Shown here piece by piece: positions 28,642 to 33,650 of a stretch of DNA of 52,565 nt. This DNA is from Bacteroidota bacterium. GTDB taxonomy: Bacteria > Bacteroidota > Bacteroidia > Flavobacteriales_C > GCA-002722245. Within the stretch, counting starts at the first letter, position 1, and each line of letters opens with the position of its first letter. The notes beneath the pieces were generated by a model. The model was given only the letters and a program-made list of their open reading frames with translations. It was not told the origin of the DNA and searched no databases. The stretch spans positions 1-52,565 of the forward strand of contig JAPLEZ010000071.1 in the NCBI GenBank assembly GCA_026390935.1, written 5' to 3'. A program made the position numbers and the translations under genes.

Positions 28642-29108
28642 TTTAATTCCACCAGCGTATTCACATGTTTTTTCAAAATGCTATCAGCGAGCATTTTACT
28701 TTTTATTTCTTCCAACACTTTTGCGTCTAAAGGTTTATTCCTGCTGATGATGTCCACGCCTTCCGGAGTAAATATTGTTTTAGAAAACCAAATGACAGCC
28801 CATTGATTTTGTTCGTCCTTCAACTTGATTTCCCAATTACTTTTTGCAATGGCCAGCCAACCTTTTCCTTGCCAGGTAAAGGCTTTATTGTTGGTGGGAT
28901 TTAAATAATCGAAACCCGAAATACTTTTTGATTTTCCATTTTCAAGATAAGTGACTTCATCCAAAAGAATGATCTCTCCCTTTTTTTCGGCAATGGCGTA
29001 ATTAAATTGAGGATTGGTTTTGGAACCTTCCAACCAAAGCGGAAAGTTGCTGGAAACCACAAACCAAGTACCGGCAAGAATGGCGAAAATGGAATTGAAA
29101 CTACTCAT
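28638..29108 (-). CDS. Lipocalin-like protein
   Basis: The first residues carry the lipocalin signature pattern GTWFVVSSNFPLWLEGSKTN (the G-x-W at the first strand), followed by eight antiparallel strand-like segments, including a YLNPTNNKAFTWQGKGWLAI block and the final helix-like KMLADSILKKHV. Lipocalins bind small hydrophobic molecules in a barrel. The short hydrophobic N-terminus (SIFAILAGTWFVV) merges with the first strand and is not a convincing signal peptide. The start overlaps the upstream MORN gene by 8 bp. Ligand unknown. Confidence 0.72.
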   Translation of the reverse strand: MSSFNSIFAILAGTWFVVSSNFPLWLEGSKTNPQFNYAIAEKKGEIILLDEVTYLENGKSKSISGFDYLNPTNNKAFTWQGKGWLAIAKSNWEIKLKDEQNQWAVIWFSKTIFTPEGVDIISRNKPLDAKVLEEIKSKMLADSILKKHVNTLVELK

Positions 29109-29952
29109 TCACCACCTGTACTACTTTCCCTCCTTTATAAATTAGGGTTTTAGTAATTTTTCCATTGGTGCCATATTGAAATACTTTTCCGTCCACCAAA
29201 GCTCCGTTTTCAAACAAGCCCTCTCTGGCAACTCTACCTTCTCTATCTTTCAACTGATACATTCCATTGCCATCAAAAACACCAACTTCAAATTTTTCTT
29301 TTGTCGCTTCTTTTACCGGCTCTTCCTTCACTTCCAATTTGGTGTCGGAAGCAGTTTTATTAATTGGATTTTTTCTATCGTACTCTTTACTTGCCTGGGC
29401 ATCCATATTGCCTTGCTGGTAAATTTTTTCTGATTTCAAATCACCGTTTTCATAGTACTCTTTAATGGAACCATTCTCTTTACCATTAATCCACTCGCCA
29501 CTGATTCTTACTTTTCCATTTTCGTAATAGTACTTTTGCTCACCAGTTCTATTGCCTGAATTGTTGTAATTCCATTCATTGGCCAGCTGTCCATTTTCAT
29601 AGTAGAATTTGTAAACACCAATCCATTGTCCGTTTTTCCAAGTACCTTCTTCTTTCTTATTACCATTTGGATAATAAAAAACAGCAGGACCATTAGGTAA
29701 ATTTCTTTGATAAGTGAGTTGCTCCTTTACTTTTTCGTTATTGAAATAGTGCAACCATTTGCCGTCTTTAAGATTGTCAACATAATCACCCTCTTCTACT
29801 TTTTGATCGGCTCTGTATCCTGCAAGTTTTTTGTCTTGATTTAAAAACACCCAATGTCCTTGTTTCAATTTGTTTTGATCAACAACATTTTGCGCACTCA
29901 TAAGCGAATGGCACCCAAGAAACATCACAAAAATCAACCCTTTTTTCATCAT
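29101..29952 (-). CDS. Secreted YwqK-family MORN-repeat protein
   Basis: A signal peptide (MMKKGLIFVMFLGCHSLMSAQ) precedes six or more MORN-like repeats with the x-Y-x-NG-x2-x-E-x-x-Y pattern (VFYYPNGNKKEEGTW, KFYYENGQLANEWNY, KYYYENGKVRISGEW, KEYYENGDLKSEKIY) and a later half-repeat region. YwqK proteins are often labelled antitoxins, but exported MORN proteins like this are common in Bacteroidota and no toxin gene is beside it. It leads a three-gene operon with a lipocalin-like and a four-helix membrane protein. Confidence 0.82.
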   Translation of the reverse strand: MMKKGLIFVMFLGCHSLMSAQNVVDQNKLKQGHWVFLNQDKKLAGYRADQKVEEGDYVDNLKDGKWLHYFNNEKVKEQLTYQRNLPNGPAVFYYPNGNKKEEGTWKNGQWIGVYKFYYENGQLANEWNYNNSGNRTGEQKYYYENGKVRISGEWINGKENGSIKEYYENGDLKSEKIYQQGNMDAQASKEYDRKNPINKTASDTKLEVKEEPVKEATKEKFEVGVFDGNGMYQLKDREGRVAREGLFENGALVDGKVFQYGTNGKITKTLIYKGGKVVQVVNE

Positions 29953-30163
29953 AACAATTTTTTCCTCAAGGCAACCATCAACTAAGGAGTCGGATGGGAT
30001 TTAATAACCAAAAGTTAATTCAGTGCATAATTTTAGGAATTAAATCCATGCAACACAAATTTAGTTAATCACAAACGAAAGTGAATAAATACGAATTTCT
30101 CTTATTTACCAAGGCTTTAAAAGACATATAAACCTTAATAAGATTTACATTATTGCACCAGAA

Positions 30164-31669
30164 TTACGAAGTCTGCATTTGTTGCTGAAAGGCAAGCTCA
30201 ATAAATTCGGCCGGATGCGTAATGGCAACCATCACCGAAACGTTCATGTAGCCATTTAAAATATCCTGCCCTGTCATCGTTGATCCTAAGCCCACCGACA
30301 CATTAAAAGCATCCGCAGGTTGAGCTCCAGCTAACGCTCCTTCTTTCCAAAGATTCGTCAAGAAATTTTCTATCATACTTTTTACCGTTGCCCAAGTATT
30401 GGTGTCGTTGGCTTCGAACACGTATGCCTGCATCGCTGCTTTAATGGATTGTTCAATCATGATCAAAGTTCGACGAACATTGATATAGCGATAGTCATTA
30501 CTGTTGCCGTCGAGAGTACGTGCACCCCAAACCAAAATTCCTCTTCCAGCAAACGATCGAATGGCATTAATTGCTTTTCCGTCCAACGGAACATTAAGAT
30601 CTCCCTGTGTTGCATCATTGATATTAACAACAGGTGATACCACTGCACTTATCCCAACGTTTGCCGGAGCTTTAAAAACTCCCTCAGCATTATCCACTGT
30701 ATTAATTAGTCCGGCAATGGCTGGCGTTATTGGCAAGCAATTTATCTTATGTACAATAGTGCTTATTAAGTTATTATAATTAGGAGAAATCAAAAGCAAA
30801 GAATTATGAGCCATAGTTACTTTTTGCTGATCTTGCGGCGACATACTTAAATAATCACCCGATTGCGGTAAGCCTGCTAAAGCCACACTCACCCTAGCTG
30901 CAATACTCGGATCGGTGTCAACAAGCGCTCCACTAAATCCACCTTCAATATTTAAAAAAGTAATTTGATTAATTTCCACAATAGTGGTGTTCACCCAAGG
31001 ATAATACGCAGCGCCATAACTTAACGATGGAGAAGAAATGTTTGTCCTAAATTCAGCTGTAACATCAATTGATTTGCCTGAGCCGCCGTAAACATCCAAC
31101 AAAGCAATTCTGCTTTGCACAATTCCACAATGATCAATGCTTTTGTTCATCAAACTATAATAATCTTGCTGAGAAAGAAGCAGCGCATCGGGAATTAAAA
31201 TCATTGTTGGCTCTGGATTAGTCAACAAAACAGAAAATACATTCTCCTGATCATTAACAAAATCACTTAGCCTAACGCCATTCACTCCTTCTACTGCAAA
31301 AGTCCCAACCGACATTACATAACACGTTCCTCCTCCATTTTGATAAAAAAGTTGAATGCTGTTGTACAAATAAAACTGAGTATTGGTATTTACATTTAGT
31401 GAATAGTCAATGTTATTTAATTGAACATCACTCGCTTCTCCCTCTTTATTTAATGCATAAACGGCATTGGAAGCTTCACCAAAAAGAGCTATAAAATCAG
31501 TCATCGACTGAATTTCTATTACTTGATTTTTCAGCGATTTCCCATTGTAGACATTCCTTTTAGTATAGCCAATAAATACGGGCAATGCTGTTGGAACTTG
31601 AACCACCGAATTAGGAAAAGCATTGATTTCATTGATGTATACTCCAGGGGTGCTAATATTAAGAGACAT
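30164..31669 (-). CDS. Contractile tail sheath protein (phage/extracellular contractile injection type), solitary
   Basis: The N-terminus STPGVYINEINAFPNSVVQV and FIGYT block are hallmarks of eCIS/phage sheath subunits, and the C-terminal domain (GRGILVWGARTL, DYRYINVRRTLIMIEQSI, VFEANDTNTWATVKSMIENF) is the conserved sheath core that polymerises around a tube. The 501-residue length includes one variable inserted domain. In phage tails, PVC/Afp particles and T6SS-like systems, sheath subunits are encoded with tube, baseplate, spike and ATPase genes. None of those is found in this window; its neighbours are a MORN operon and a U32 peptidase. Expression seems independent: it has its own upstream region containing a 10-bp perfect inverted repeat. 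Confidence 0.9.
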   Translation of the reverse strand: MSLNISTPGVYINEINAFPNSVVQVPTALPVFIGYTKRNVYNGKSLKNQVIEIQSMTDFIALFGEASNAVYALNKEGEASDVQLNNIDYSLNVNTNTQFYLYNSIQLFYQNGGGTCYVMSVGTFAVEGVNGVRLSDFVNDQENVFSVLLTNPEPTMILIPDALLLSQQDYYSLMNKSIDHCGIVQSRIALLDVYGGSGKSIDVTAEFRTNISSPSLSYGAAYYPWVNTTIVEINQITFLNIEGGFSGALVDTDPSIAARVSVALAGLPQSGDYLSMSPQDQQKVTMAHNSLLLISPNYNNLISTIVHKINCLPITPAIAGLINTVDNAEGVFKAPANVGISAVVSPVVNINDATQGDLNVPLDGKAINAIRSFAGRGILVWGARTLDGNSNDYRYINVRRTLIMIEQSIKAAMQAYVFEANDTNTWATVKSMIENFLTNLWKEGALAGAQPADAFNVSVGLGSTMTGQDILNGYMNVSVMVAITHPAEFIELAFQQQMQTS

Positions 31670-31680
31670 AATTTTTAAGT

Positions 31681-31717
31681 TAAAAGATTAGGTAAGCGAA
31701 CTTAACAATCTTTTAAT
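31681..31717. repeat. Perfect 10-bp inverted repeat just upstream of the sheath gene
   Basis: TTAAAAGATT (31681-31690) and AATCTTTTAA (31708-31717) are exact reverse complements with a 17-bp spacer, 11 nt upstream of the sheath start codon on the minus strand. It could be an operator or a 5'-UTR hairpin. The divergently transcribed U32 gene starts 73 bp away. Confidence 0.6.
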
Positions 31718-31790
31718 GATTTGAGAATAAGAACCAAAAAACAACTTCCCACTTGCGATAGTTCATTATTTATCAGACCTTTGCAAGCTC

Positions 31791-33650
31791 ATGAAGAAGA
31801 AAATTGAAATACTCGCTCCCGCAAAAGATTTAGTTCATGGCATGGCTGCCATTGATGCCGGAGCCGACGCTGTATACGTTGGCGCGCCTATGTTTGGCGC
31901 ACGTTCCAACGCCACCAACTCCATTGAAGATGTTGCTGCCTTGGTAAAATACGCTCACTTATTTAAGGCTCAAGTTTTCGTAGTGATCAACACTATTTTG
32001 TACGATAATGAGCTGGAAACTTGTCGTAAAATGATTTATGAATTGTACGATATTGGCGTTGATGCGCTCATCGTGCAAGACATGGCCCTGCTGGAAATGG
32101 ACTTACCTCCTATTACCATTCACGCTAGTACACAAGCCAACAACAGAGACCCTAAACACGTTAAATTTTTAGCCGATGCAGGTATCAAACGTGTGGTATT
32201 GGCTCGAGAACTGAATTTACATCAAATAAAAGAAATAAGCGCTGCAACTGATGTGGAGCTGGAATTCTTTGTAACTGGCGCACTATGCGTGTCCTTTAGC
32301 GGAAACTGTTACATGAGCGTTGCCAACGGAGAACGCAGTGCCAATCGCGGATCATGCGCACAAAACTGCCGATTGGCTTACAACTTAATCGACGGAAAAG
32401 GTGAAACTTTAATTTCCAACAGTCATCTTTTGTCTATCAAAGATTTTGATGTGACCGATGAAGTTCCTCAACTGATTGAAGCTGGTATCACTTCATTTAA
32501 AATTGAAGGTCGACTGAAAGACATGGTATACGTTAAAAACAACGTGTCCTACCTTCGTAAAAAATTAGATTCCTTTTTAGAAGGCAACGATAAATACACC
32601 AAGGCATCATCGGGAAAAACCACTTATATATTTGAGTCGGCTTTAGATCGTAGTTTCAACAGAGGCTACACCGATTATTTCGTCAACGAAAGAAAAACAA
32701 AAATTGGTTCTTGGGAAAGTCCGAAATCGAAAGGACAATTGATTGGTAACCTCATTGAAACCAAAGGAAATGCCTATGTTATTGAAAATGCACATCAGCT
32801 CAACAACGGAGATGGCTTGTATTTCTTGAACGATGAAGGAATTGCTGATGGCGTTTTAGTCAATAAAGTAGAGGGCAATAAAGTGTATCCTAACGCCATG
32901 AAAATGATCGCGAAAGGAACTGCGATTTATCGCAACAGCGATTCAGCTTTCAACAAACTTGTAGAACGTGAAGACAGTGCCGTGCGAAAAATCAGCACTT
33001 CACTTTTATTAAGCGAAACCGAAAACGGATTCCAATTGTTGGCTACAGATGAAGACGGACACCAAAGTTCATTTTCAATTGTACATGCCAAGGAAAAAAC
33101 AAAAACAGGGGAATCCATTGCCACCAACATAAAAGCACAATTACAAAAAACCGGCAACACGCCTTATAACGCTGATGAAATTGAAATTCAGTTTTCGGAA
33201 AACTGGTTTCTTCCAATTTCAAAAATCAATGAATTAAGAAGAACGGTGTACGAACAACTCACTGAAATAAGAGTGAGGGATTACGTGCGTCACGAACAAA
33301 AAATTGAAAAAACATCACACCCTTATCCAGTTGCTGATTTGGATTTCACCTACAACGTAGCCAATAAACTAGCCCGTAAATTTTACGAACGCCACGGCGC
33401 CACTAAAATTGAAAAGGCTTTTGAGTTGCAATGGGATCCAGGAAAATCACGTGTGATGGTGACAAAGTACTGCGTGAAATACGAGTTAGGAAAATGCCCT
33501 AAATACAATAAGGACACCATGGGCACCAAATTGCAAGAGCCGCTAACATTGACTCATGGCGATAACGCCTACAAATTAAAATTCAACTGCAAGCCTTGCG
33601 AAATGGAGATTTGGGAGAAGGATGCGGAATTGGAATTTGAAGAGGATTAG
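31791..33650 (+). CDS. U32-family protein, RlhA-like (23S rRNA hydroxylation)
   Basis: This is a full-length two-part U32 protein: an N-terminal TIM-barrel U32 domain (APAKDLVHGMAAIDAGADAV, RVVLARELNL, IKEISAATDVELEFFVTGAL) with the cysteine cluster CVSFSGNCYMS and GSCAQNCRLAY, and a C-terminal DUF3656-like region ending with a second cluster (YCVKYELGKCPKY, NCKPCEM). RlhA, the closest named relative, hydroxylates C2501 of 23S rRNA and needs an iron-sulfur cluster. Despite the family name, peptidase activity is doubtful. Length 619 fits RlhA better than the shorter TrhP. A GACCTTTG element 7 nt before the ATG is a weak promoter candidate. Confidence 0.85.
   Translation: MKKKIEILAPAKDLVHGMAAIDAGADAVYVGAPMFGARSNATNSIEDVAALVKYAHLFKAQVFVVINTILYDNELETCRKMIYELYDIGVDALIVQDMALLEMDLPPITIHASTQANNRDPKHVKFLADAGIKRVVLARELNLHQIKEISAATDVELEFFVTGALCVSFSGNCYMSVANGERSANRGSCAQNCRLAYNLIDGKGETLISNSHLLSIKDFDVTDEVPQLIEAGITSFKIEGRLKDMVYVKNNVSYLRKKLDSFLEGNDKYTKASSGKTTYIFESALDRSFNRGYTDYFVNERKTKIGSWESPKSKGQLIGNLIETKGNAYVIENAHQLNNGDGLYFLNDEGIADGVLVNKVEGNKVYPNAMKMIAKGTAIYRNSDSAFNKLVEREDSAVRKISTSLLLSETENGFQLLATDEDGHQSSFSIVHAKEKTKTGESIATNIKAQLQKTGNTPYNADEIEIQFSENWFLPISKINELRRTVYEQLTEIRVRDYVRHEQKIEKTSHPYPVADLDFTYNVANKLARKFYERHGATKIEKAFELQWDPGKSRVMVTKYCVKYELGKCPKYNKDTMGTKLQEPLTLTHGDNAYKLKFNCKPCEMEIWEKDAELEFEED

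Follow-up and report, generated by a model that had tools for sequence, protein, structure and literature searches.

The window, by which we mean the whole 52,565-nucleotide stretch of Bacteroidota DNA that was analysed, carries a single intact gene for a contractile sheath protein standing among ordinary genes (Table 1). Its open reading frame runs from ATG to stop with no internal stops and coincides exactly with the interval in which the sequence-only reading, which gave no strand, had placed a full-length sheath with both conserved termini. That description holds, since the best PDB alignments run from residue 5-6 to residue 501, so that both termini are present. The MORN operon lies downstream of the sheath on the same strand after a 211-bp gap, while the U32 gene is divergent from it; the MORN_2 and peptidase U32 assignments that had been proposed for the flanks were both confirmed.

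Table 1. Features at the sheath locus, in window coordinates.
Feature	Coordinates	Strand	Remarks
Solitary eCIS-type contractile sheath gene	30164..31669	-	501 aa, intact
Single-gene segment without homology in G007 (sheath plus about 75-80 bp on each side)	30089..31751	.	BLASTN breaks
MORN_2-repeat protein, 283 aa, native flank	29101..29952	-	Pfam; on another contig than U32 in G007
MORN operon, two small downstream ORFs of 156 and 136 aa	28231..29108	-	no Pfam match
Peptidase U32 family protein, 619 aa, native flank, divergent	31791..33650	+	97% identical in G007
10-bp inverted repeat TTAAAAGATT-N17-AATCTTTTAA, directly upstream of the sheath start	31680..31716	-	

The window protein is an eCIS sheath of the AlgoCIS/tCIS type, closer to eCIS sheaths than to those of phages or T6SS. 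Phage_sheath_1C (PF17482, the C-terminal sheath domain) matches it with E=3.1e-14 (53 bits against a Pfam cut-off of 26.9), and the subtilisin-like domain Phage_sheath_1 (PF04984) reaches 26 bits, under its cut-off of 31.4, although a structure match spanning most of the length lends it support. PHROG tail-sheath families also match. The PDB matches are contractile sheaths exclusively and are headed by eCIS/CIS sheaths, namely 9r9h (422 bits), AlgoCIS 7adz (317) and Anabaena tCIS 7b5h (302), with PVC, AFP and Streptomyces CIS following at lower scores. Phage records show 25-33% identity over 38-55% of the length, and a search of viral contigs returned 9 distant relatives with a profile and no relative with the single sequence as query.

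The fold points in the same direction. The AlphaFold2 model, built with 36 window and locus sequences (mean pLDDT 82.7, pTM 0.83), leaves residues 1-17, the N-terminal arm, disordered, as would be expected of a lone subunit. Foldseek and VIA-align both rank AlgoCIS Alg2 above phage sheaths, the VIA-align superposition having a Z of 34.6 and an rmsd of 2.8-3.1 A over 387-396 residues. The two handshake arms, TPGVYINEINAFPNS (N-terminal) and PAEFIELAFQQQMQ (C-terminal), align with those of eCIS sheaths and match the eCIS consensus at 0.72 and 0.79, respectively. At an overall identity of 38-51%, the window sheath retains 73 of the 77 columns that are invariant in 40 eCIS sheaths, and 117 of 126 at the 95% conservation level. 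The best-conserved regions are the C-terminal domain, whose two long helices are conserved at 0.85 and 0.81, and both arms. This domain should include the tube-contact helix, and no relaxation is visible in it; no loss of the putative tube-contact surface was seen, the C-terminal domain being conserved as in eCIS sheaths. Its unrelaxed state speaks slightly against a prolonged existence without a tube and is compatible with a recent transfer or with those residues serving the fold itself. The window sheath has no close orthologue, and the constraint may have acted before or after it became solitary.

Comparison with the nearest same-genus genome (G007) delimits the segment to which the gene belongs. 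BLASTN homology to the window ends at 30088 toward the MORN operon and at 31752 toward the U32 gene; in G007 itself, the flanking units sit on separate contigs. With homology lost some 80 bp beyond either end of the gene, the sheath occupies a single-gene segment between native genes, which bears out the earlier description of a single-gene unit; the part lacking a G007 counterpart measures about 1.66 kb, with the sheath as its only gene. The sheath gene is absent from all four same-genus species genomes. Foreign composition was not seen, the GC content being 0.392 for the gene and 0.381 for the window and the codon use close to that of its neighbours, nor was any mobile-element gene seen adjoining it. 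The flanks are native in the genus, as the sequence-only reading had supposed in arguing against recent prophage decay, and a prophage remnant is rejected on this ground and because phage matches are partial at 25-33% identity. The inverted repeat upstream of the start is a possible operator or 5' UTR hairpin, or may have arisen by chance. Its fold z-score is -0.66, an energy that is not unusual, and other solitary sheaths lack it, so a conserved regulatory hairpin is rejected. A genome of the sister genus (G005) also has a solitary sheath, with 44% identity, but its surroundings differ and include a scramblase-like gene and a desaturase-like gene.

Partners of the sheath were sought in the window and in the source genome, a draft of 3,755,448 bases in 155 contigs with a completeness of 100 and a contamination of 1.12. 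In the six frames of the window, no match was given by profiles built from clustered loci for 11 other eCIS gene families, in agreement with the previous observation that the window contains no other contractile-system gene. At a control eCIS locus, 10 of these 11 profiles find their gene, the GH18-type family being on the untranslated strand. The source genome holds one sheath gene and no second was found, and profiles detected no Afp11-type baseplate, spike or gp25 in it. The Pfam gp19 search was silent in control genomes and was replaced by a built tube profile, which finds no eCIS tube in the source genome and four in the Chitinophaga control. Likewise, the T6SS TssD tube (PF17642) is absent from the source genome and was found in three others (G260, G016 and G036). 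The sheath is not accompanied by the linked genes of a functional eCIS (tube, spike, baseplate, gp25 and cap), none of which is in the window. The window sheath is alone in its genome as far as the searched parts extend, these being sheath, eCIS tube, TssD, spike, Afp11-type baseplate and gp25. The proposal that it complements an eCIS or T6SS-like cluster elsewhere finds no support and is rejected for this genome, in which tube, spike, baseplate, gp25, TssD and a second sheath are undetectable by profile. In sequence and fold the gene belongs with the eCIS sheaths; judged by gene content, it lies outside any eCIS.

This state is recurrent. A scan of species genomes identified 70 relatives of the window sheath, about 40 of them in eCIS clusters and about 25 solitary. 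Clustered relatives accompany genes for the tube (PF06841), the DUF4255 cap, CIS_tube/LysM, spike, gp25 and large baseplate proteins, whereas the neighbours of solitary relatives are ordinary genes and vary between genera; no conserved partner gene emerges from them. Solitary sheaths are hosted by Roseivirga, Algoriphagus, Flavobacterium, Pedobacter, Mucilaginibacter, Tenacibaculum, Saprospiraceae and Marinomonas. A profile search detected no tube anywhere in 18 of the 28 genomes carrying a solitary sheath or a sheath-tube pair; some of these 18 are incomplete MAGs, and most of the named ones are isolates. In five Algoriphagus-type genomes the lone sheath, 49-83% identical between them, has stayed close to a shared set of neighbours. 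Some solitary copies look broken (L073, G206). Cultured species with such genes include Roseivirga seohaensis, Algoriphagus hitonicola, A. faecimaris, Flavobacterium rakeshii and Pedobacter polysacchareus, which makes the question of the lone sheath directly testable.

Several individual loci deserve mention. Two Pedobacter sheaths (L040 9989-11964 and L039 9989-11467) are 93% identical and share an upstream epimerase gene, one having a tube gene directly downstream and the other not. This difference suggests that the sheath-tube pair is a step toward the lone sheath. The solitary sheath of Marinomonas phaeophyticola (L053 10001-11578), a member of the Gammaproteobacteria, is nested among Bacteroidota sequences, an interphylum transfer. 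A megaplasmid of Pararhizobium sp. A13 carries a full-length sheath relative (L164 7001-8431, 37% identity) in a stretch without a listed gene. Clusters of eCIS genes are plasmid-borne in Parabacteroides, Aureibacter, Chromobacterium and Iodobacter, and plasmids thereby offer a route of spread. In genome G353, a 393-aa sheath-domain protein with a lipoprotein-like signal peptide (L105 7760-8938) lies near a thioredoxin-like gene and is possibly exported.

Since the first search began from the sheath, separate surveys for sheath, tube and baseplate served as a control for bias, all three covering one set of 395 class-level genomes, with nearby matches merged into places. Sheath places numbered 73 (45 with tube and baseplate, 19 solitary), tube places 72 (45 with sheath and baseplate, 16 solitary) and baseplate places 50 (45 with sheath and tube, 3 solitary). 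Each of the 3 solitary baseplates either sits at the start of a contig or belongs to a genome of 59% completeness. Some of the 19 solitary sheaths are fragments or contig-end cases; full-length copies well inside contigs occur in G128, G159, G240, G260, G332 and G395. Decay to random remnants fails to explain this pattern, because sheath and tube persist alone and the baseplate does not.

Solitary gp19-type tubes were found in unrelated contexts (L113 7407-7871, L117 7280-7750, L111 7595-8026 and L119 7519-8022), and three genomes (G206, G240 and G395) have a lone tube and a lone sheath at separate loci. Spike-PAAR-like pairs also stand alone in tube-less genomes, for example in Roseivirga ehrenbergii (L167 6890-9077, G011), with further pairs at L168 7671-9665 and at L169 7115-8551, where the spike is shortened; G159 and P. 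foliorum (G018, shortened spike) are among the genomes with such pairs. At another locus of G353 (L114 5215-8268), where no sheath was found within 25 kb, one tube gene is grouped with cap-like, spike-like (573 aa) and PAAR-like genes. The existence of solitary tubes and spike-PAAR pairs indicates that solitude is not peculiar to the sheath and that several eCIS parts are scattered singly. The idea that only polymer-forming parts become solitary is weakened by the lone spike-PAAR pairs.

Phylogenetic reconstruction shows that solitary sheaths are polyphyletic and arose several times. On the maximum-likelihood tree the solitary label takes 13 changes, at least 7 of which are forced by well-supported branches, and a single origin is rejected. 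The window sheath groups with Hymenobacter eCIS sheaths (support 99/87) on a long branch. Solitary sheaths with close orthologues are under purifying selection, somewhat weaker than that on eCIS pairs: pairwise dN/dS is 0.149 in Roseivirga, 0.169 in Flavobacterium and 0.12-0.14 in Algoriphagus (dS 0.7-1.3), against 0.03-0.11 for pairs of eCIS-cluster sheaths.

AlgoCIS is among the closest known systems. In its sheath, a handshake links the subunits to one another, while contact with the tube is made by an attachment helix in domain I (PMC8894135). Alg2 (PDB 7adz, 7ae0 and 7aek; PMC8894135) resembles the window sheath in fold, in being the single type of sheath protein and in its handshake arms, with 41% identity over the aligned structure; it differs in its length of 692 aa and its extra outer domains. 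Alg2 wraps a tube, and its gene has tube, baseplate, spike and cap genes for neighbours, whereas the window sheath is solitary. The closest solved sequence is the eCIS sheath of PDB entries 9r9h, 9r9i, 9r9n and 9rce ('Phage tail sheath family protein', 519 aa), which was solved together with its own tube (9r9h_B), while the window sheath has none. A large survey of eCIS grouped linked genes and demanded at least 10 core genes (PMC8213781), so that a class of solitary sheaths was filtered out by design, and searches of the open-access literature brought up no account of sheath genes that stand alone or are orphaned.

Our preferred reading, which we hold tentatively, is that the window gene encodes an AlgoCIS/tCIS-type sheath that was horizontally acquired and now works without a tube, having been exapted most likely to form tube-less polysheath cylinders. 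The sheath gene of an eCIS of this type would most likely have arrived by horizontal transfer and settled as a single gene, and its product may then have been exapted as a stand-alone polymer. In such a polymer, the handshake would involve three subunits, a beta-sheet in one of them being completed by an N-terminal arm from the second and a C-terminal arm from the third. Lacking a tube as template for the extended form, the subunits would be expected to build hollow cylinders of the contracted polysheath type. With the arms and core kept and the tube absent, one would most directly predict a hollow cylinder of the contracted type. Candidate roles for the cylinders would be an intracellular scaffold, a released particle or the titration of invading contractile parts.

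Precedents for such assembly come from phage sheaths. The extended sheath requires the tube as a template, while contracted polysheaths arise from the sheath proteins of T4 and phiKZ in the absence of both tube and baseplate (PMC6088184); tubes of FV3 gp053 are about 28 nm wide and survive heating to 100 C (PMC6357053). The diffocin sheath protein CD1363 remains monomeric (PMC6088184), so not every sheath protein polymerises alone. We propose the polysheaths of T4 gp18, phiKZ and FV3 gp053, hollow tubes without tube or baseplate, as the working model (PMC6088184, PMC6357053), with the difference that they are recombinant or by-product assemblies from complete phages, whereas the window sheath is the only component encoded. 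By analogy with them, the window protein would be predicted to form polysheath. The suggestion of the sequence-only reading that the protein has been reused, for example as a self-assembling filament, is strengthened by recurrence, purifying selection and the retained invariants, the filament itself being a prediction. For the solitary class as a whole, exaptation is likelier than decay; for the window copy taken singly, exaptation leads a recent stray copy by a narrow margin only. The wider proposition that solitary eCIS sheaths are repeatedly evolved, tube-independent protein cylinders, that is, stand-alone self-assembling tubules with a function of their own, we consider possible and rather doubtful.

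The strongest competing explanation is that a single eCIS gene was taken up recently, is functionless here and has not yet decayed, which we regard as somewhat unlikely. The sequence-only reading held that a complete eCIS elsewhere, together with absence or decay of the gene in close relatives, would reduce it to such a stray copy; the gene is indeed absent from the four same-genus species, which keeps a recent stray copy plausible, and the genome holds no eCIS elsewhere. The tight single-gene break is as a stray copy would leave it, and with Hymenobacter eCIS sheaths nearest in the tree, the retained invariants could stem from a donor eCIS. Clusters of this kind occur on plasmids and travel between phyla, other eCIS genes are also scattered singly, and broken solitary copies exist. 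On the other hand, the base composition and codon use of the window sheath are not foreign, no adjoining mobile-element gene was seen, and the solitary class is under purifying selection and syntenic in Algoriphagus-type genomes.

Orphan hcp and vgrG genes of T6SS are located away from the main cluster and serve a T6SS elsewhere in the genome. The window sheath is like them in being a gene for a contractile-machine component away from any main cluster; unlike them, it encodes a sheath rather than a tube or spike, and no machine was found in the genome. An action in trans would here need a partner that the profiles fail to recognise or that is missing from the draft, such as a diverged tube or a plasmid-borne eCIS, and this we judge improbable. 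In its favour, the assembly is a draft of 155 contigs, the C-terminal domain, where tube binding is expected, matches eCIS sheaths in its degree of conservation, and G240 and G395 are among the genomes with a lone sheath and a lone tube at separate loci. However, completeness is 100%, five other component families are absent from the source genome, the profiles readily detect these parts in controls, and 17 other solitary-sheath genomes likewise have no tube. Least probable, by a small margin, is interference, in which a lone subunit would poison or titrate the assembly of foreign contractile machines such as plasmid-borne eCIS or phage tails: intact handshake arms make co-assembly with related sheaths possible and the patchy single-gene distribution resembles that of defence genes, but no defence neighbourhood was noticed around the window sheath (without a PADLOC search), and the 25-33% identity of phage sheaths over partial length makes co-assembly with them doubtful.

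To speak of an undescribed system here would be an overstatement, since the protein is a known one and what is new is the genomic state, which recurs. The usual view is that contractile sheaths are useless without tube and baseplate. If the preferred reading of an exapted, tube-less sheath is true, a selected and recurrent class of sheaths in tube-less genomes would represent a second life of the sheath as a stand-alone assembly, and recurrence together with selection suggests that the sheath alone serves some undescribed use.
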